A stretch of DNA of 64,000 nucleotides from an uncultured Oligoflexia bacterium (GTDB taxonomy: Bacteria; Bdellovibrionota; Bacteriovoracia; Bacteriovoracales; Bacteriovoracaceae), in contig CAJXPQ010000012.1 of assembly GCA_913058265.1 (NCBI GenBank), positions 1-64,000 on the forward strand. Reading direction: 5' to 3'. Shown in pieces: positions 10,056-61,667 of this stretch. Position 1 is the first letter of the stretch, and the number at the start of each line of letters is the position of its first letter. The notes beneath the pieces are model-generated. The model was not told the origin of the DNA. It searched no databases and was given only the letters and a program-made list of their open reading frames with translations. The translations under genes and the position numbers were made by a program.

Positions 10056-10847
10056 ATGAAAGAAATAATTCTCACAAACATCCTGACAGCACTCATAATT
10101 ACTGGGTACTTTCTATACTCAGCACCAAACAATGAGCCAATTAATAAACAAAAACAGGGAATAAGAAATATGGCCAGTATTCCACTGAAAGTAAGTAAGC
10201 CTGTAGCTATTTTCAAGAAAGAAGAAACTATAATAAAAGATGAATTCTTAAACCGAGAACTCAGTTGGACAGAGCACCTAGACATTGTGGCGATTGGAAA
10301 AAGTGAGGTTGAGAGAACTATCTACAAGAATTTTACTCTCGGACTTCACAAGATTCTAAAGAAAAACACACCGAATACTGCAGCGAAGCGACTTCTGAGG
10401 TACCATGAAATAAAAAGAGATTATGAAAATTTGAATCAAAAAACAGGACACCTTCATTCTGATAAATTACAAATTCGTGCCCAGGAGATAAACTTACAAC
10501 TTGAAATTCTAGATACTAAATACTCAGATGAAATGATAAGTGAACTTGAGTACGAAGCTCTTAGAGAAACTATTGACATGCGACGAGATCTTGAACCTGA
10601 ATTTAGCATTGAATACTACCAAAAACGAGAGAAAAGAAAAGAGCGCTATCACATTCAAGTCATGAAAGTTTTGGGACATAAATCGTTTATAGAACTAAAT
10701 TCATTCCTTAAAGAATTCAATCAAGATCTAAAAATCACATATGGAAATTCAACTTTCACAACAAGATGGGATAAAAAAACGCGTACTATGCTAGACTATG
10801 ATATCGAACAAGAAACTAATACAGCTAAGCATAAATTCTCACTTTAA
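10056..10847 (+). CDS. Hypothetical membrane-anchored or secreted protein
   Basis: A 263-residue protein with one N-terminal hydrophobic segment (ILTALIITGYFLY), followed by a long charged helical region rich in Glu, Lys and Arg. It has no motif I recognise and no cysteines, and its middle may form a coiled coil. It is a stand-alone gene, convergent with the next gene; two strong hairpins lie between them. Most likely periplasmic. Confidence 0.55.
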   Translation: MKEIILTNILTALIITGYFLYSAPNNEPINKQKQGIRNMASIPLKVSKPVAIFKKEETIIKDEFLNRELSWTEHLDIVAIGKSEVERTIYKNFTLGLHKILKKNTPNTAAKRLLRYHEIKRDYENLNQKTGHLHSDKLQIRAQEINLQLEILDTKYSDEMISELEYEALRETIDMRRDLEPEFSIEYYQKREKRKERYHIQVMKVLGHKSFIELNSFLKEFNQDLKITYGNSTFTTRWDKKTRTMLDYDIEQETNTAKHKFSL

Positions 10848-10930
10848 GTATTCAAATAAGATTACATTACCGCCGAAGTAACAAATTCTTGGATGCTCAA
10901 GAAGGAAGGTTCTTTACAATTAAATATCAA

Positions 10931-10968
10931 AATGTTGCTCAAAAGTGGAGAAACAATTGAGCAACATT
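10931..10968. terminator. Hairpin between convergent genes (first)
   Basis: AATGTTGCTCAA (10931-10942) and TTGAGCAACATT (10957-10968) form a perfect 12-bp stem with a 14-nt loop. There is no clear T run. It probably helps end transcription of the plus-strand gene before it. Confidence 0.45.
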
Positions 10969-10982
10969 CAGATTCTCATCAC

Positions 10983-11014
10983 TTCAATTATAAATAGGAG
11001 AACTTATAATTGAA
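10983..11014. terminator. Hairpin between convergent genes (second)
   Basis: TTCAATTATAA (10983-10993) and TTATAATTGAA (11004-11014) form a perfect 11-bp stem with a 10-nt loop, 14 bp after the first hairpin and just downstream of the minus-strand gene end at 11033. Confidence 0.45.
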
Positions 11015-11032
11015 CTATATATTTCTATGTAA

Positions 11033-11542
11033 TTATTCATAAATTCTTTCACCCTCAATTTCACAAACTAATCGATATGTCTTCTTTCGCTTAAACCATC
11101 CCATGTTTGGGATCGTACCGTGACCTTCAACAAGATCACTTCTATGTTTATTATAGTCAAGAGATACACTTACAAAGAATTTTTGACTCTCAGTAACAGC
11201 TTCTATTCCTTCACAAATACTTGTATTATCATTTTCATTCTCTACACATTGGTCCTCATCTTCCTGATAAGCATATCCAGAACAGATAAGCTCATCTTCA
11301 GTACTAATACACGGATAATCTTGTTTAGAATTTCCGAAACGAATAAATCTTTCATCAAACCCCTCACCGACAGAAGAAATGGTGAACTTCTCAATTGCTT
11401 CTCCTGTTGATTCACTATCAAAAACCTCATAAGTTCCACATTCTAAAGATAGATCTTCAAAGTTCGTTGGTAATTCTTTATAGGTTACAGCATTTGCGCT
11501 CAGGCTTACTAAAGTAAATATCATCAAAATAGTACTTCTCAT
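11033..11542 (-). CDS. Hypothetical secreted Cys-containing protein
   Basis: Starts at ATG 11542, which has AAGGAGA upstream; a longer frame begins at 11587 but lacks a ribosome site. The first 18 residues (MRSTILMIFTLVSLSANA) are a signal peptide. The mature part of about 150 residues is acidic in the middle and has six cysteines, which suggests disulfide bonds in the periplasm or outside the cell. No known domain is seen. It is divergent from the secreted protease gene. Confidence 0.6.
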   Translation of the reverse strand: MRSTILMIFTLVSLSANAVTYKELPTNFEDLSLECGTYEVFDSESTGEAIEKFTISSVGEGFDERFIRFGNSKQDYPCISTEDELICSGYAYQEDEDQCVENENDNTSICEGIEAVTESQKFFVSVSLDYNKHRSDLVEGHGTIPNMGWFKRKKTYRLVCEIEGERIYE

Positions 11543-54807: not shown

Positions 54808-55524
54808 TTAAACGGAAACCAATATCAAATACTCTTTATTACCCGTTTTTCCTTTGATAGGAGAATCGATCTGCTTTTCAATTATATAGTTCTCTTCTTG
54901 AAACCAAGTTAAGACTTCATCAAGAATTTCTTGTTGATATTCTTTTTTAACAATTCCACCCTTACCAAGTCGAGCCTTCCCTGCTTCAAATTGTGGCTTA
55001 ATTAAAACGACTGCCTTTCCATTTTCTTTTAATAATGACGCCAATGTTTTAAACACAAGCCTGATAGAAATAAACGATAAATCGGCCACACAAAAATCGA
55101 CTTTTTCTGGAAGAGTGTAATCATTTTTAAGGTTCACACCTTCAAGATTAACGACTCTATCATCAGAGGTGAATAGCGGTGAGAGTTGATTATGTCCTAC
55201 ATCAATGGCGTAAACTTTGCTAGCACCATGCTTCAAGCTAACCTGGGTAAAGCCCCCAGTGCTTGCACCACAATCCGCAATAACTTTCCCTTTAAAATCT
55301 AATCCGAATTCATTAATGGCACCGACAAGCTTATGAGCTCCCCGACTAACATAAAGCTCTCCTGAGCTAATCTCAATTGTGACATTTTCATCAACAAGAA
55401 AACTAGTCTTAGTTATGACCTTACCGTCACATGAAACATCACCTTGCTTTATAAGCATACTTGCCTGAGACCTTGTTTTAACAAGGCCCGCGTCGACCAT
55501 ATACCTATCGAGACGTGTTTCCAT
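54808..55524 (-). CDS. TlyA family rRNA methyltransferase
   Basis: About 238 residues from ATG 55524 (METRLDRYMVDAGLV). An N-terminal S4 RNA-binding domain (TRSQASMLIKQGDVSCDGK) is joined to an RrmJ-like methyltransferase: IADCGASTGGFTQVSLKHGA, VYAIDVGHNQL, VDFCVADLSFISI and VLIKPQFEAGKA. TlyA-type enzymes methylate ribose in rRNA, and some members are hemolysins. It overlaps dapF by about 20 bp. Confidence 0.9.
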   Translation of the reverse strand: METRLDRYMVDAGLVKTRSQASMLIKQGDVSCDGKVITKTSFLVDENVTIEISSGELYVSRGAHKLVGAINEFGLDFKGKVIADCGASTGGFTQVSLKHGASKVYAIDVGHNQLSPLFTSDDRVVNLEGVNLKNDYTLPEKVDFCVADLSFISIRLVFKTLASLLKENGKAVVLIKPQFEAGKARLGKGGIVKKEYQQEILDEVLTWFQEENYIIEKQIDSPIKGKTGNKEYLILVSV

Positions 55525-56308
55525 AAATTTCACCTATGTATTTCATTTTGACCGCTCCTTGAAAATAGAGCTCTTTAAGATCTTTATCAACTATTGCCTT
55601 TAATAGACCGCCCTTAACATAAACTTGAATCTCTCCAGTCCATCCAAAAAACTTTGAACAACTAACTGCAGTGGCCATAACTCCCGTTCCGCAACAAAGT
55701 GTTTCATCTTCAACACCGCGCTCATAAACTCTAAGCTTAATGACTTGCTTCTTTGGATCTATAACTTCAAAGAAGTCTACATTCGTTCCGTTTGGAAAGC
55801 GCACATCATGTCGAATAGCAGATCCTATATTTTTAACATTCACATCTTCCACAGAGCTCACTTGAATAACTGCATGAGGAACGCCTGTGTTTAGAAATAA
55901 AGCTTGTTTACCTGATAAGTCTGAAAGGTTGATCTTATCTACATCATACAGTTCGGTCATCTTAACCTTCACTTCCGATTCATCAACTGCCACCCCAGTA
56001 TATTTTCCGTTCATGGTTTCAATACTAAATTCTGGTTGGTCTTTTATTTTAATTATGTGATACGCAAAGTGAACTGAGCAACGTGTTGCATTTCCACACA
56101 TTTCGGCCTCTGAGCCGTCTGCATTAAAAATACGAAGGCTATAATCACAATCAGTTGAAGCTCCAATTAAAACCACTCCATCAGCTCCAATACCTTCTCT
56201 TCGCTTGCACCACTCAACAACTTCACTAGGACGGATAGAGATCTGTCCTTCTCTATTATCAATGAAAATAAAATCGTTTCCCGACCCCGAGTACTTATAA
56301 AATTGCAT
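55505..56308 (-). CDS. dapF: Diaminopimelate epimerase
   Basis: A 267-residue protein with two catalytic cysteines: EMCGNATRCSVHF near residue 73 and DETLCCGTGVMATA near 216. FYKYSGSGNDFIFIDNR at the start and NTGVPHAVIQV are also family blocks. It converts LL- to meso-diaminopimelate for lysine and peptidoglycan synthesis. Confidence 0.97.
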   Translation of the reverse strand: MQFYKYSGSGNDFIFIDNREGQISIRPSEVVEWCKRREGIGADGVVLIGASTDCDYSLRIFNADGSEAEMCGNATRCSVHFAYHIIKIKDQPEFSIETMNGKYTGVAVDESEVKVKMTELYDVDKINLSDLSGKQALFLNTGVPHAVIQVSSVEDVNVKNIGSAIRHDVRFPNGTNVDFFEVIDPKKQVIKLRVYERGVEDETLCCGTGVMATAVSCSKFFGWTGEIQVYVKGGLLKAIVDKDLKELYFQGAVKMKYIGEIYGNTSR

Positions 56309-56438
56309 ATAAACTCCATTGACTCTATGCTAAATGGCCAATTTTGACGTCAATCTATCATAGATGACCGGAATTTCATATATTTAATGATTTTCAAATC
56401 GAGATTCATTTTGTATTATTTCAAACCTAACTACCTAT

Positions 56439-56515
56439 GGAGCATTAGCTCAGTTGGTTAGAGCCCCCGGCTCATAACCGGGTGGTCGCAAGTTCAAGTC
56501 TTGCATGCTCCACCA
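56439..56515 (+). tRNA. tRNA with CAU anticodon (elongator Met or Ile2)
   Basis: A complete 77-nt cloverleaf with CCA encoded. Acceptor GGAGCAT/ATGCTCC, D stem GCTC/GAGC, anticodon stem CCCGG/CCGGG with loop CTCATAA (anticodon CAT), and T stem GCAAG/CTTGC with TTCAAGT. The anticodon stem lacks the three GC pairs of initiators. The T loop TTCAAGTC resembles tRNA-Ile2, where C34 becomes lysidine, but Met is not excluded. Its 3' end is copied in the sites at 57416 and 58519. Confidence 0.9.
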
Positions 56516-56551
56516 TTTTACATTGAACGAACTAATCTTCCTCAATGTTTG

Positions 56552-56578
56552 AAAAGCCTCCTTTTTAGGGGGCTTTTT
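56552..56578 (+). terminator. Terminator after the tRNA
   Basis: AAAAGCCTCC and GGGGGCTTTT form a 10-bp stem (one T-G wobble) with a 6-nt loop and run into T residues. It ends the tRNA transcript, 37 bp after the CCA. Confidence 0.8.
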
Positions 56579-56653
56579 CATGCCTTTTCAAGAAATGTAA
56601 TTTCTATTATCATCACATAAGAACTCCATCTAGATTCAACGGGAAGTATTAAC

Positions 56654-57235
56654 ATGTCTAGTTTCCACTCCATAACGAAAGATCGTGAAGCATCTAAGTT
56701 TCTTTTAAAAACACTTGATATGCCTGACCTAAATGTCGGCCTTGCACTAGATCTTGGATGTGGTTCAGGATCTGACTCTCTTGAGCTACTAAGACAAGGG
56801 TGGCAAGTTACGTCTATAGATAAATCTGAAGAAGGAATTAATTTTCTTAAAGCTCAGGTTGAAGACGATGATTCAATAGAGATAAAAAATACATCTTTTG
56901 AGGACATGAAACTTCTTAAAAATAATTATGATTTAATATATTCAAGGTATGCTCTTTCTTTTTGTCAAAAGACAAACTGGCAAAGTGTATGGAAAGAAAT
57001 TAAGGAGTCTTTGAAGTCAGGAGGAATGATCTCAATGCACCTTTTTGGGATAAATGATGGGTTTAAGAATTCAAAACGTCATGGAGATATGACATTTTTC
57101 TCAAAGGATGACATCAAAGAAACTCTTAAAGAGTTTAAAATAATATTTGAACATGAAGATGAGCACGATGCGAAATCAGCAGTGGGACAAATGAAACACT
57201 GGCACGTCTTCACTATTGTTGCTCAAAAGGTTTAA
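56654..57235 (+). CDS. Class I SAM-dependent methyltransferase
   Basis: A 193-residue Rossmann-fold methyltransferase. Motif I is ALDLGCGSGSDSLELLRQG, motif II is VTSIDKS, then YDLIYSRYALSFCQK and IKESLKSGGMISMHLFG. The substrate is unknown; TehB-like proteins are the closest recalled group. It is the only gene between the tRNA and the first tRNA-end repeat site, so it may be cargo of an integrated cassette. GGGAAG precedes ATG 56654. Confidence 0.85.
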   Translation: MSSFHSITKDREASKFLLKTLDMPDLNVGLALDLGCGSGSDSLELLRQGWQVTSIDKSEEGINFLKAQVEDDDSIEIKNTSFEDMKLLKNNYDLIYSRYALSFCQKTNWQSVWKEIKESLKSGGMISMHLFGINDGFKNSKRHGDMTFFSKDDIKETLKEFKIIFEHEDEHDAKSAVGQMKHWHVFTIVAQKV

Positions 57236-57253
57236 ATATTAGCTAAGGTTTGC

Positions 57254-57426
57254 TTCCTCACTAAGCTTACACAACAAGGTAAGTAACTGAAAGTTCATTC
57301 TAATAAATTGAGTTTTAGATATCAATACTAGTGAGGAAGAATGCTCTTCTCTAGAAAAACCAGAATCATATTAATAACTTACGACTGAGGAAGAAAAGTT
57401 CGTTTATATGATCGTATGCTCCACCA
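57254..57426. repeat. Cassette-end site 1: three AsTGAGGAA motifs plus tRNA 3' end
   Basis: TTCCTCACT (inverted) at 57254, AGTGAGGAA at 57330 and ACTGAGGAA at 57384, then AAGAAAAGTTCGTTTATATG and, at 57416-57426, ATGCTCCACCA, identical to the last 11 bases of the tRNA. Motif spacings (76 and 54 bp) equal those of the second site. Sequence between motifs is not conserved, which points to protein-binding sites held at fixed geometry. Confidence 0.8.
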
Positions 57427-57432
57427 GTTACT

Positions 57433-57464
57433 AAAAAGCCTTCTTTTAATCGAGAAGGCTTTTT
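57433..57464. terminator. Bidirectional terminator after cassette site 1
   Basis: AAAAAGCCTTCT and AGAAGGCTTTTT form a perfect 12-bp stem with an 8-nt loop, flanked by A and T runs on the two sides. It lies between convergent genes. A near copy follows the tRNA-end remnant at 59924, so it may be the original tRNA 3' flank. Confidence 0.85.
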
Positions 57465-57472
57465 TATTTCAA

Positions 57473-58345
57473 TTAACCATTTATAGATTTAATCATTCTA
57501 GGTAAGTAATTCTTTATAGGTTCAAGTTCAATACCCAAATCTTCCAACTTAGAACAGTCCATGTACCAGTCTGCTGATATATTATACGGAGATCCATTTT
57601 CCTCAGTCTGCTCTTCAGATAGAATTAATTCATTACCCACAATTTCTTCTATTTTTCCCATGCAATCTTTTAGACTAATAGGCTCAGAGCTCGCGACATT
57701 AATAGGTCCATTAAATTCATTTTGACTTAATTCATAAAGAGCTTTCGCTGCATCATCAGCAGAGATAAAGGCAATCATTGATTCAATATTAGAAAGAAAG
57801 ATAGGCTCTTTATTTTTAATTTTATTAACATGAAATTGAAACCTTTCTGTTACATCATTTTCATCTAGAACAATTGGAAAACGTACAGTTGTTACAGGAA
57901 ATTTTGCATATTTATAAAACGAAACCTCTGCTTGCCTCTTCGCAACTCCGTAATTACTTTCTGATGTTTCTTTATTATCAAATGAAAAATTATAAGGATC
58001 AAATACGCTCTCTTTAATTGAGGCCCCATATGTATAAGTCGAAATACTAGATGTAAAAATATACTTTCTTACTCTACCGTTGAATACGTCACAAGCTATT
58101 TTGGCCTGATCATAATCAAAGCAAGACTGATCAAATACAACATCGTAGTTTTCAACAATAGCTTCTTCTAGAGATGACCTATCATGCCTATCACATTTAA
58201 TTCTCTTAACTCTGTCACCAAAACCATCCTCTCTATTTCCCCTATTCAATAAGGTAACATTACAGCCTTCATTCAATAGTATCTTCACCAACTTTTTACC
58301 AAAGTAGTGATTACCACCTAAAACTAGAACTTTTTTCATCACCAT
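57473..58345 (-). CDS. NAD-dependent epimerase/dehydratase family protein
   Basis: A 290-residue extended SDR. The dinucleotide loop is KKVLVLGGNHYFGKKLVK, a variant of GxxGxxG, followed by LLNRGN; the FTSSISTY and YGVAK blocks carry the Ser and Tyr-x3-Lys of the catalytic centre. The variant loop resembles plant CSP41-type and other reductase/isomerase-like members. The start is ATG 58345 or 58339. Site 2 begins 13 bp upstream, and its GAGGA may act as a distant ribosome site. It is the only gene between sites 1 and 2. Confidence 0.8.
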   Translation of the reverse strand: MVMKKVLVLGGNHYFGKKLVKILLNEGCNVTLLNRGNREDGFGDRVKRIKCDRHDRSSLEEAIVENYDVVFDQSCFDYDQAKIACDVFNGRVRKYIFTSSISTYTYGASIKESVFDPYNFSFDNKETSESNYGVAKRQAEVSFYKYAKFPVTTVRFPIVLDENDVTERFQFHVNKIKNKEPIFLSNIESMIAFISADDAAKALYELSQNEFNGPINVASSEPISLKDCMGKIEEIVGNELILSEEQTEENGSPYNISADWYMDCSKLEDLGIELEPIKNYLPRMIKSING

Positions 58346-58357
58346 AACTTTTTTTGT

Positions 58358-58529
58358 TTCCTCACTAAGTTTAAACTACTTTCTAAGCTATTAAAAACAC
58401 ATCCAACTATGATGTAAATATCAGATCAATATCACTGAGGAAAAACCATTTCATAATCTAAAACATGAATTAAACTAAAGACTTAAGAGTGAGGAAGAAA
58501 AATTCGTTTATACGATCGATGCTCCACTA
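58358..58529. repeat. Cassette-end site 2: same layout as site 1
   Basis: TTCCTCACT at 58358, ACTGAGGAA at 58434 and AGTGAGGAA at 58488, spacings 76 and 54 bp as in site 1. It continues with AAGAAAAATTCGTTTATACG and the tRNA-like end ATGCTCCACTA at 58519-58529, one base different from the tRNA. The palindrome GCGAAATTTCGC follows at 58542-58553 where site 1 has its terminator. Confidence 0.8.
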
Positions 58530-58605
58530 TTTTTCCAATAAGCGAAATTTCGCCCACTTGGTTACATAAAAAAGACTTGTTATCAACTTCATCCTTTCTT
58601 ATCAT

Positions 58606-59831
58606 TCAGGGCTTTACAGAAAGTAACTTATTAAGTTCTTGAATAACACCTTTAATATTTTCAGAGACATATTTTTTTGGAAAACTATCTTTTAAAGACA
58701 TAAATTCCTTCTTAGCCAATTTATATTTTTGTTGTTGATATAAGATTAATCCTTTCTCATATATAACATCAAACATTGGACCCTGAAGATTAAGTACTTT
58801 ATCATAGTCATTAATTGCTTCTCTTTTTTTTCCTATTTTATTTAAAGAAATTGCTCTATTCAGATAAGCCTTATAATACTTAGTGTTTAAATCTAGTGCT
58901 TTAGTATAAAAATTAATTGCTTTGTAATAGTTTTCTTGATCAAAATAGATATTAGCTGAATTATAGTAAGCTCGGAACAAGCTCGGCCTTATTTCAATTG
59001 CTTTGAGATAGTACTCTAAAGCTTTTAAAGGTTTATTTATTTTTTTGTAAGCGATTCCAAGAGTAAGATAGGCGTGGCCAGACATTGGATAAAGTTCAAC
59101 CGCCTTTTTGGCATCTCGTAAGGATTTCACGAATTCTTTTAACCTAAGGTGTAAGTAGGATCTGTTAATATAACCCTCTCCACTATTTTCATTTAAATTG
59201 ATAGCCTTATCACAGTACTGAAAAGCCCTTTTGTATTTTTTCAATTTTGTAGCTATTAAACAAGCATTACTGTATAGCCCCGAAAGAAATTGATTGCTTG
59301 AGGCCTCTTTGAAGTCGAGTTTTTTAGGGTCAAGATGTAACAGAGAAGCAATTTTTTCATTACTTAAATTCTCTCCATCAACAGTAGTTTCTATATTTCG
59401 CCCTTCAAATCTCAGGTAGATATGACCTGGAATCATAACTGGATTGAGTTGAACTTCAAGCTTATTAGCTAAGTTCATATACAAGAGTGTGAGCTAAAAC
59501 AATTACCGTTCCCGTAATCAAGTAAAAAACTATATAGACCTTCCAATTCCTGTAGCTTGTATTTTCTAGGAACTGGGTGTTTTTTTATGGAGTTAACCTC
59601 GTCAATAATAGCATTGAGAATATCACTTTTTGAAACTTTCTTCTTTTTTTTCATTCTGATTTTTATATTATCCACAATGCTTTTATAATTTTCGGACGAG
59701 CTAATATTAAATCCCAACTCGCTTGAAATAGTTAGAGAAGCCTTTAACATTTCTTCAACAGAAATAGTTTTGTTTTTAGATAATGCTCCAAAAGAATAGA
59801 GAAAGAGAGATAAAATAATAATCGTTTTCAT
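58606..59831 (-). pseudogene. Transglutaminase-like (SirB1-type) plus TPR protein, split by a frameshift
   Basis: Two overlapping frames make one protein. The first (59831-59475) has a signal peptide and a helical region and ends near LLDYGNGNCFSS. The second (to 58606) starts in LLYMNLANKLEVQLNPVMIP and continues with GHIYLRFEG and TTVDGEN, then about six tetratricopeptide units. Adding one base near 59485 fuses them into GNCFSSTLLYMNLANKL. Cys of GNC, His of PGH and Asp of TVDG fit the transglutaminase-like triad of SirB1-type proteins. The break falls beside the catalytic Cys. It is a decayed gene, a sequencing error or, less likely, a programmed shift. Confidence 0.65.
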
Positions 59832-59923
59832 TTAAGTATTATAAAGGATTAAAAATATTTAGGGAATTTAAATGTCAGTTTCAGATTAGTTTCACTAGAA
59901 CATGTACAACAGGCCTAAACGCA

Positions 59924-59972
59924 ACGCACCACCAGTTATTAAAAAGCCTTATTTAAATCAAGAAGGCTTTTT
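59924..59972. repeat. Third tRNA-end remnant with terminator
   Basis: ACGCACCACCA (59924-59934) matches the tRNA 3' end at 9 of 11 positions and is followed by GTTATT and a terminator (AAAAAGCCTT/AAGGCTTTTT, 59941-59972) closely related to the one after site 1. The AsTGAGGAA motifs of sites 1 and 2 are not recognisable here, so it may be an older or decayed end. Confidence 0.5.
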
Positions 59973-59990
59973 AATTTTATAATTTCATTC

Positions 59991-61001
59991 TTATAAACAA
60001 CGTAGCTTTTTTTCACCGTCGACAGGTAAGAACTCCTTCATCTCTTTTGATATTTTCTGAGACTTAACAAAGTTTAACCACTGAGAGGAATACTGAGTTA
60101 CTTCTTTTGCATTATCACAGTGATTTGCCTTGTCTAAAGTGTCTATTGAAGACTTGAATATTTTTTGTAGTATTTTTTTGTTTGTTTTGTTAGTCAGAAT
60201 ACTCCAATCATTTTTATTATTTTCTTTAGCAAGTTTCAAATAATTATCAAACATGGTTAAAAAATAGTACACCCCATCGTACTGAGATGATCCTATCATT
60301 TTAGGATTTGACAATTTTCCCCTTACAGAGTGCTCATACTTCAAACCATGTGTGTATGCATTTAACTCACTTGTCATATACAGAAGATCTGTTCCTGCCG
60401 GAAACTCCAAATCTCCAATATAGCCTAAGTGTGTTTCAGTGAAAAAGTTATCACCAGAAATCAAATCTTTAAAATTCTTCTCTAAAAATGGATTTATAAG
60501 TTTCGGTGTTTCTGGTAAGTTTTCGTGTCCACTAAACCCTCCCAAAAACTCATTATCCACAGTAATAAAATTAACTTTATGAGTACCATCATAACCAATG
60601 TCTTGATAATGCACATCTTCATGTAAGACACCAATCCCACCGACGAGAGCAAAGTCCATATCACTTGAATTATTACAACTTGGATTAAATTGTTTGAAGT
60701 TATCTGGAAACTTATCGTTTAAAAATTTTTCGCTATCTGAAGTGAGTGATGATAAGAATTTCTCACGACAAAGATCTTTTTTAAGATTCTCATTTTTTAT
60801 TCTTTCAACTTCTGCAATTAGTTCCAAGTATGCATCTTTCTTCTGACTAGCCTTCTCATAACAGGCGGTATCACTTTCATCACAAATCAATACCTGATTA
60901 CGATGCATACAATCAGCGATGTTAAGTAACTCATCACTATCAACAGCAAAGCTACTAAATGCGATCATTAGAATAGATAATCCAAGTAATCTAGCAAGCA
61001 T
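59991..61001 (-). CDS. Secreted putative HExxH metallopeptidase
   Basis: About 336 residues from ATG 61001 with AGGAGA upstream. A signal peptide (to SSFAV) precedes a region with several cysteines. At mid-length is GIGVLHEDVHYQDIG, containing HEDVH, a match to the zinc motif HExxH. About 100 residues later, SELNAYTHGLKYEHS supplies a Glu that could be the third ligand of a gluzincin-like enzyme. The family is not recognised and catalysis is unproven. A sigma-54 promoter lies upstream. Confidence 0.55.
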   Translation of the reverse strand: MLARLLGLSILMIAFSSFAVDSDELLNIADCMHRNQVLICDESDTACYEKASQKKDAYLELIAEVERIKNENLKKDLCREKFLSSLTSDSEKFLNDKFPDNFKQFNPSCNNSSDMDFALVGGIGVLHEDVHYQDIGYDGTHKVNFITVDNEFLGGFSGHENLPETPKLINPFLEKNFKDLISGDNFFTETHLGYIGDLEFPAGTDLLYMTSELNAYTHGLKYEHSVRGKLSNPKMIGSSQYDGVYYFLTMFDNYLKLAKENNKNDWSILTNKTNKKILQKIFKSSIDTLDKANHCDNAKEVTQYSSQWLNFVKSQKISKEMKEFLPVDGEKKLRCL

Positions 61002-61095
61002 AATTATTCTCCTGAGTAAGAAGTAAGCACTGTCAAAAAAGTAGGCAGTATCCAATCCCCTTTCTTAGTTAAAAACGATTTCGTACCCTTATTGA

Positions 61096-61196: not shown

Positions 61197-61667
61197 ATGA
61201 ATAATTTTAGATTTGAAAAACCATTTGAAACAAGACCTCCGAGACTTAAAGATTTAGTAAATGAACACGTTATGGGAGATGTTTGGATTAGGGACACACC
61301 TTTTGGACCAGTGACTGATTCACTCAGAATTGCAGAGCATTTTGATATGAAACACCATAATGTACTTAGAGCAATTGATAAATGTAATGAAGAACTAGCC
61401 ATTGAACTCAAATTTGAGTTGAATAAAAACTTCATAGAAAACGATTACTTAGGTGGTGCCAAGGGAAGAAAGAGAAAAAGTCGAAAAGTTGATATTACTG
61501 AGTTTGGTCTCATGCTACTTCTTCTATATATTAACACGCCCAAAGCCAGAATGATTTCTGCTGAGATACTGTATCGATTTTTTATATTAAAAAACTATGT
61601 GTCAGGGTTAAATGAAAATCAAATAGGTGCTCTAAAAGGTTATTACCGTAAAAGAATGGATGAATAA
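61197..61667 (+). CDS. Rha family (phage regulatory) protein
   Basis: A 156-residue protein with the pRha pattern: PVTDSLRIAEHFDMKHHNVLRAID, then FIENDYLGGAKGRKRKSRKV, DITEFGLMLLLLYI and a final RFFILKNYV helix. Rha proteins are phage-encoded and interfere with growth of some phages in hosts. No other phage gene is nearby, so this is probably an isolated acquired gene. ATG 61197 has AGAAGGGAG upstream. Confidence 0.75.
   Translation: MNNFRFEKPFETRPPRLKDLVNEHVMGDVWIRDTPFGPVTDSLRIAEHFDMKHHNVLRAIDKCNEELAIELKFELNKNFIENDYLGGAKGRKRKSRKVDITEFGLMLLLLYINTPKARMISAEILYRFFILKNYVSGLNENQIGALKGYYRKRMDE

Follow-up and report, generated by a model that had tools for sequence, protein, structure and literature searches.

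How does a row of small gene units come to be assembled behind a single tRNA gene? The question is raised by a locus in 64,000 nucleotides of DNA from an uncultured Oligoflexia bacterium (Bacteriovoracaceae; contig CAJXPQ010000012.1, positions 1 to 64,000 of the forward strand), a stretch that we call the window. Here, a tRNA-Met gene (CAU anticodon) is followed by an array of short units, termed cassettes, the first two of which end in a conserved site closed by a copy of the tRNA 3′ end. We consider it fairly probable that the region consists of nonautonomous, tRNA-targeted cassettes with attP-like arms that are recombined at CCA by a trans-acting recombinase, probably a tyrosine integrase. 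The observation behind this work, made in a first-pass annotation of the same sequence, proved genuine and larger than described there, and its interpretation as a whole is partly supported. The annotation placed one inverted and two direct copies of the motif ASTGAGGAA in each of two sites, and both sites are exact at spacings of 76 and 54 bp; the tRNA-end copies said to close them were also found. The parts that define the array are as follows.

55505..56308, minus strand: dapF, which adjoins tRNA-Met in 12/12 compared loci carrying that tRNA (window included) and serves as the vertical yardstick
56439..56515, plus strand: tRNA-Met (CAU), the array anchor
56516..56578, plus strand: cassette 1 left end, type A, with an intrinsic-terminator-like hairpin
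56538..56546, minus strand: arm-like motif TTCCTCAAT (8/9), within the cassette 1 left end
57230..57426, plus strand: site 1 (full site)
57254..57262, minus strand: site 1 motif 1, an ASTGAGGAA match
57330..57338, plus strand: site 1 motif 2, an ASTGAGGAA match
57384..57392, plus strand: site 1 motif 3, an ASTGAGGAA match
57416..57426, plus strand: site 1 copy of the tRNA 3′ end, ATGCTCCACCA, the proposed crossover region
57427..57464, plus strand: cassette 2 left end with a terminator-like hairpin, of a type also found behind site 2 of genome G091
58333..58529, plus strand: site 2 (full site), motifs at 58358-58366 (minus), 58434-58442 (plus), and 58488-58496 (plus)
58519..58529, plus strand: site 2 tRNA-end copy, ATGCTCCACTA
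58530..58572, plus strand: cassette 3 left end, common to site 2 of genome G013; no call by the terminator scan
59927..59934, plus strand: third tRNA-end copy, CACCACCA, with no recognizable arm region
59935..59972, plus strand: left end of a fourth unit, of the same type as 57427-57464; hairpin by eye, no call by the terminator scan

The window belongs to a genome of 3.23 Mb in 25 contigs (G000). We aligned 23 full copies of the site (set A1) from nine genomes (G000, G003, G005, G012, G013, and G089-G092) of four genera (g1, g3, g10, and g11) in one family, the Halobacteriovoraceae judging by its named relatives. Relaxed motif scans supplied 21 of the copies, a profile added L066:7980-8190 and L032:6327-6520, and a partial motif match in L032 (oriented 11877) was excluded. 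The alignment establishes a common architecture of about 197 bp: CATAACCATAACC, inverted motif, 67 bp, motif, 45 bp, motif, GAAAAGTTCG, about 14 variable bases, and a closing tRNA 3′ end that is mostly ATGGACCACCA. GTTCG follows motif 3, and three sites have a 14-15-bp insert before it. Mean column identity is 91% in the motifs, 70-71% in the spacers, and 95% in TTCG plus the tRNA end, and drawing 27 columns at random 20,000 times never reached the motif-column mean. The annotation had called the intervening sequence unconserved, which the spacer columns contradict, and the two window sites agree at 37/67 and 25/45 of their spacer bases. A tRNA-end-like 11-mer closes 23/23 aligned sites, an exactness that is partly by construction, the ends having been placed by that match. 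The window as a whole holds seven ASTGAGGAA matches against 1.39 expected, a count reached in none of 100 shuffles; the seventh, at 57599, lies within the epimerase gene.

In the attP of lambda-type tyrosine integrases, short arm motifs occupy fixed positions next to a core matching a tRNA 3′ end, and, judged from sequence, the motif geometry found here fits such arms. The difference is that every cassette here retains the arms, with no accompanying integrase gene. An RNA element was also considered and rejected: the consensus fold of the 23 sites has three pairs at -0.03 kcal/mol with zero compensatory changes, thus no common RNA fold, and Rfam over window positions 56300-60100 gave the tRNA as the sole match above the gathering score.

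The site is not scattered through the genomes. The pattern TTCCTCACT-N60..75-ASTGAGGAA matches only the two window sites in G000, one of them on both strands, and the same motif-pair search across 59 genomes (relatives plus G000) gave matches in three. One of these is of another genus and has an equal 76-bp spacing. With up to three mismatches, the three motifs together occur at 16 places in 8 of 129 family genomes and nowhere in the reversed control. A sequence-only model of 197 positions (R1), used at an E value of 0.001 or better with search filters that lose some weak matches, found 16 of the 129 family genomes and the same 16 among 368 in the phylum, with two hits in G000. Its 23 hits above 90 bits are exactly the sites from which it was built, and therefore there is no further strong site in the searched genomes. 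Exact motif 2-motif 3 pairs lie within arrays in 8/8 cases; with up to one mismatch, 16 pairs are in arrays and eight are elsewhere, against seven for the reversed control. No related element with the site was found outside arrays in the 129 family genomes. The annotation's expectation of confinement was thus borne out, both G000 sites being in the window, and a genome-wide repeat was rejected on this ground and because the 23 strong sites lie either at the array locus or, in G003, on a contig that shows no tRNA gene. A hit in Halieaceae was read as chance, being unlike the site and missed by the model.

The sites are also linked to one tRNA gene. The array begins at the same dapF-linked tRNA-Met (CAU) in 8/8 strong-site genomes whose contig shows the tRNA gene; no tRNA gene was seen on the site contigs of G003. 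Four weak-site genomes (G081, G096, G110, and G125) have tRNA-Met on the same stretch, and the weak-site stretches of G070 and G080 have none. Two further weak model hits, G006:C60 and G089:C5, were taken as chance, both lying within ORFs (open reading frames). Four relatives (G001, G059, G060, and G149) have the tRNA-Met with no convincing site, and in G148, where the contig ends, the tRNA is followed by a typical left end. A shorter form of the site without the motif 2-to-motif 3 stretch occurs in three genomes (G110, G096, and G003), as repeat deletion would produce.

Comparison across genomes shows that the bases immediately following CCA behave like a mobile end. We compared the 80 bases behind 33 tRNA or site ends and found a T-run after base 25 in 31 of them, usually behind a hairpin, and an inverted motif-like stretch (at least 7/9) 20-40 bases from CCA in 11. 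In three genomes (G000, G090, and G092), the type A left end follows the tRNA, and in G092 it also follows site 1; the G013 tRNA left end recurs behind G090 site 1, and that of G091 behind its own site 1. There are thus three clear cases of a tRNA-type left end behind a cassette site (G092, G090, and G091 site 1), with a weaker one in G005. Recurring left-end pairs score at least 42, and the best of 3000 shuffled pairs scored 16.5. In an ungapped comparison of G000 with G090, a member of another genus, 63/63 bases after CCA are identical, followed by 21/70, and 25/80 are identical upstream of the tRNA. If DNA is broken and joined at CCA, left ends would be expected to assort in this way. The terminator scan called the window ends at 56515 and 57426 and left the other two uncalled.

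A third, weaker tRNA end had been noted in the window. It is a genuine junction, the left end after CACCACCA nearly matching that after site 1 (GTTATTAAAAAGCC), but no recognizable site precedes it: the site profile and the model gave no match upstream. In G013, a longer internal tRNA-end copy, GCAAGTCTTGTATGGCCCA, with a left end and no arm region lies inside cassette 2 (L003 1850-1930) and resembles this third end. The same genome has partial tRNA-Met duplicates just upstream of the intact gene (L003 120-380), one with an inserted stretch, which look as if they were leftovers of failed or nested insertions.

Sites, left ends, and some genes are shared between genera far above the identity of dapF, which, at the level of sequence, supports mobility. 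The dapF protein of G000 is 37-43% identical to those of g3 and g11 genomes (39% for G090) and 66% identical to that of G012 (g10). By comparison, the Rha-family protein of G000 is 83-85% identical to its g3 and g10 counterparts, the epimerase is 74.5% identical to that of G013 (g11), and the noncoding site 1 matches a G089 site at 85.3% identity. Between genomes, site identity averages 66% over 188 pairs, and some pairs reach 75-85%. Separately, the arrays of two species, G089 (L028 7393-8180) and G092 (L031, oriented 10326-11116), have in common an ORF6N module of 88% DNA identity over 793 bp; in the G092 array, it starts exactly at the CCA end.

The annotation had described single genes between the ends and had proposed comparing cassette content across strains. 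Cassettes 1 and 2 of the window are of this kind, but cassette 3 holds two overlapping ORFs that, judged by eye, look like one transglutaminase-TPR gene split by a frame change. The cargo and the genes beyond it are listed below.

56654..57235, plus strand: cassette 1 cargo, a methyltransferase, with its stop codon at the site edge
57473..58345, minus strand: cassette 2 cargo, NAD-dependent epimerase family, starting inside the site (MVM)
58606..59831, minus strand: cassette 3 cargo, two overlapping ORFs (58606-59484 and 59475-59831)
59991..61055, minus strand: gene with no Pfam match, the likely cargo of a fourth, decayed unit
61197..61667, plus strand: Rha-family gene (Phage_pRha), 156 amino acids, which recurs beside sites in other genera

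Across genomes, 22 stretches between two ends measure 653-3277 bp (median 1293) and hold one gene of at least 80 amino acids in 10 cases, two in six, three in four, and four in two; decayed sites lie within the longest of them (G012) and within one from G013, so that these two comprise more than one unit. Cargo across arrays includes methyltransferase, epimerase, S41 peptidase, GNAT acetyltransferases, MerR regulator, PDZ protein, and ORF6N, and Pfam gave no match for several cargo proteins. Three successive stretches of G091 pair a helix-turn-helix protein with, in turn, a protein without a Pfam match, a ParE-like protein below the Pfam cut-off, and a HigB-like protein; these pairs of small proteins resemble toxin-antitoxin systems. 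PADLOC models run on 10 array-region proteins matched the methyltransferase alone, over part of the mads_2 model; this partial match fits a general methyltransferase fold, and a defense island was rejected. Content does vary, other gene sets standing behind the same tRNA-Met and no two arrays having equal gene order, but some genes are common: one family takes fifth place in G013 and second place in G090, the epimerase of the second G000 cassette lies past the last site in G013, and G091 and G005 have a homologous first cassette. Sites proximal to the tRNA outscore distal ones (net 26/42 pairs over eight arrays, permutation p = 0.001), in a test picked after the data were seen and excluding G003, G005, G081, G110, and G125, whose sites are single or unordered.

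The Rha family occurs in 42/129 family genomes, with full-length hits 64-85% identical, in varied chromosomal places and often beside sites; among 15 large Rha stretches, five have tRNA-Met, three another tRNA, and seven none. It looks like a widely shared mobile gene in its own right. A role as mobility factor was dropped as not required because G013, G090, and G091 gave no Rha hit.

Which enzyme might act on these sites? As the annotation had stated, the window contains no integrase match; the integrase profile, made from the recombinases of these genomes, was also negative for the rest of the contig as fetched and for the array stretches among 43 sequences >5 kb. We searched for PF00589 in eight of the nine strong-site genomes (G005 was left out) and obtained five hits in G000, including one fragment, and between four and ten in each of the seven others. 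None of the candidates was linked to the motif: not the family-A integrases (G000, G003, G012, G091, and G092), not the 447-aa G000 integrase, and not the three Xer-like groups (X1, X2, and X3). A tree of 40 recombinases shows a branching of X2 and X3 that roughly follows the species and splits the X1-like proteins into two groups; those of G000 and G012, about 30-33% identical to the others', may be a different gene. X2 is found in 53/129 genomes and has an in-frame stop in five of them (G012, G020, G066, G075, and G148), and so it seems dispensable and decaying in places. X3 is present in 7/8 compared genomes, missing only from the incomplete G003. By eye, X3 (L011, L092, and L137-L141) appears to be missing several catalytic residues of its recombinase family, with GLK in place of GLR and KSLRQ in place of HxLRH, yet it is conserved. 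G013 combines five strong sites with four detected recombinases, three of them Xer-like (one below the Pfam cut-off) and the fourth weak and beside another tRNA with a CAU anticodon, which leaves a Xer-like enzyme or an absent helper as the main choices. Elsewhere, at L144 1111-1210, three direct repeats, CCACATGAA, lie near a short integrase-like fragment and may be arm sites of a different integrase group; clustered 8-mers other than the site motif adjoin some integrases. A reverse-transcription idea, with the complement of the tRNA end as primer site, was dropped for want of support.

In the mechanism that we propose, a cassette would consist of a left end (usually a hairpin plus T-run, sometimes with one degenerate arm motif), variable cargo of usually one or two genes, and the constant right site, about 197 bp long. 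A tyrosine integrase is the most likely recombinase; acting in trans, it would bind the motifs as arm-type sites and link cassette circles to the tRNA through the CCACCA that both share, the proposed crossover position. New cassettes would enter beside the tRNA, older ones shifting outward and decaying, and the terminator in each left end would keep tRNA transcription ending.

Several results weigh against this mechanism. The annotation had looked to a recombinase locus in the genome that shares the motif, and none was found: TGAGGAA is absent from 16 of 31 integrase loci, occurs once in 14, and occurs twice, 1445 bp apart, in the remaining one, so that 0/31 have two within 1 kb. For this reason, we still only infer movement in trans, one half of the annotation's proposal, the other half, mobile cassettes, being supported by the sharing between genera. 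A search for clustered 8-mers at 48 integrase loci did not return the motif, a weak negative as the method recovered it in just 2/5 array loci, and X2 is absent from G000. A motif of at least 7/9 at 20-40 bases from CCA is lacking in 22/33 left ends, and motif conservation is inflated and partly circular because 21/23 sites were found by their motifs. As to transfer, an S41-peptidase-type pair (G013 and G003) is just 31% identical, and no recognizable site lies beside the G013 epimerase, so that whole-cassette transfer is unsupported there; the comparisons, moreover, use one genome per species. Viral contigs searched with one exact pattern and phages and plasmids searched with one site as query gave zero hits, and on those searches a phage or plasmid origin was rejected.

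Other explanations account for parts of these data. The site could be mainly an expression leader, an operator with three regulator motifs and a start-codon leader copied before the genes of one regulon that lies behind the tRNA by chance. Near 21 site edges, 16 genes read leftward, away from the site on the minus strand, and six of these start within the edge, GGTTATGGTTATG; a minus-strand ATG lies within the last 22 bases of 20/23 edges, mostly in the form GGTTATG with the motif 1 GAGGAA upstream of it, and a TATAAT-like box is common in the sites. However, the remaining 5/21 nearest genes read toward the site, with stops at +7 to -124 relative to its edge, and a sigma-70 scan of the window region gave 12 candidates against 14.9 expected. 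A leader would also leave unexplained the tRNA-end copy, the exchange of left ends at CCA, and the link to a single tRNA in 12 genomes, and we regard it as distinctly unlikely to be the main function. Because six genes start inside its edge, the site may do both jobs, leader and recombination.

Two further alternatives concern how the array grew. Integrase-bearing elements could have inserted at the tRNA and shrunk by deletion to remnants resembling cis-mobilizable elements (CIMEs), none of them mobile today. CIME accretion at att sites has been published (PMC5704250, in its accessible text), distal sites are decayed, cassette 3 appears broken, and no cognate integrase was found in the integrase loci and array stretches searched. 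The same compact layout nevertheless recurs in four genera with different cargo and many high-scoring sites, the 63 identical bases across genera argue for recent movement, and the integrase profile finds no remnant in array stretches >5 kb; we therefore hold this fossil origin to be unlikely. Homologous recombination between sites or tRNA flanks after DNA uptake would need no site-specific recombinase. The sites are repeats, some of them 75-85% identical, and the forms without the motif 2-motif 3 stretch resemble repeat deletion, but a mean identity of 66% between genomes is low for that process, and the fixed arm geometry and high motif conservation would need another cause. This explanation appears very unlikely to us.

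The cassettes share features with several known systems. Gene cassettes at tRNA genes with tRNA-end repeats appear in the accessible parts of PMC4119200, PMC10872708, and PMC7771536. The additive flexible genomic islands of Alteromonas, Methylophilaceae, and Actinomarinales described there resemble our arrays in their tRNA target, 3′-end repeats, small cassettes, and exchange between genera, and the same locus with variable cassettes at a tRNA is found here in eight genomes. They differ in that those excerpts describe tRNA-end repeats only, whereas our arrays add a three-motif site, about 197 bp long, and an assortment of left ends at CCA. Tycheposons are likewise tRNA-Met-anchored islands with a tyrosine recombinase in Methylophilaceae but, as far as the available text of PMC10872708 describes them, span 4-200 kbp and include the recombinase; our cassettes are about 1 kb and lack it. 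More generally, islands enter tRNA genes by tyrosine integrases, as the available portion of the Islander work describes; our units end in a copy of the tRNA 3′ end and do not encode an integrase of their own. CIMEs and tandem accretions of integrative and conjugative or integrative and mobilizable elements also lack an integrase, keep att sites, and grow in tandem at the end of a target gene, according to the accessible text of PMC5704250. The right site and left end are kept here too, and the integrase profile has no match; the units of about 1 kb with one or two genes, the lack of any integrase remnant seen, and the uniform layout across genera set the cassettes apart from CIMEs.

Integrons and clusters of attC sites lacking integron integrases (CALINs) have single-gene cassettes, a constant site, and integrase-less arrays moved in trans (PMC11389934, accessible text), and toxin-antitoxin cargo is reported for integron cassettes in the available part of PMC4119200. 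Our cassettes are mostly single-gene units with a constant site as well. In contrast to integrons, the site here is long, has no conserved fold of the attC-hairpin kind, and is tRNA-anchored, and there is no integron integrase among the four recombinases scanned (three from G013 and one from G000), which score far below the NCBIfam integron-integrase cut-offs. In our reading, the array would work like a tRNA-anchored integron without being one. We can suggest, tentatively, an integron-analogous gene capture in Halobacteriovoraceae, in which the tRNA-Met 3′ end would be the platform, a double-stranded three-arm site would replace the folded attC, a host or helper recombinase (possibly Xer-like) would shuffle cassettes between species, and the site would supply some start codons.

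The annotation named no described system of this layout. Among the literature matches listed, no title or abstract describes this site (most subscription papers lie outside the coverage), and to that extent the statement stands, but tRNA-targeted cassette islands have been published. Such islands are already known; the three-motif site of about 197 bp is what sets these apart. It provides a practical marker for exchanged genes in these bacteria, and, if our reading is true, the arrays would offer a clean test of how integrase-less elements move, a process that the review of "hitchers" calls enigmatic in its accessible text (PMC11389934). Single-gene cassettes that carry a standard docking site would then have arisen on more than one occasion. 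The arrays, which differ between species, suggest an unrecognized way of collecting and swapping genes in predatory marine bacteria, which would then own a compact cassette-swapping system with a tRNA gene in place of the integron platform.

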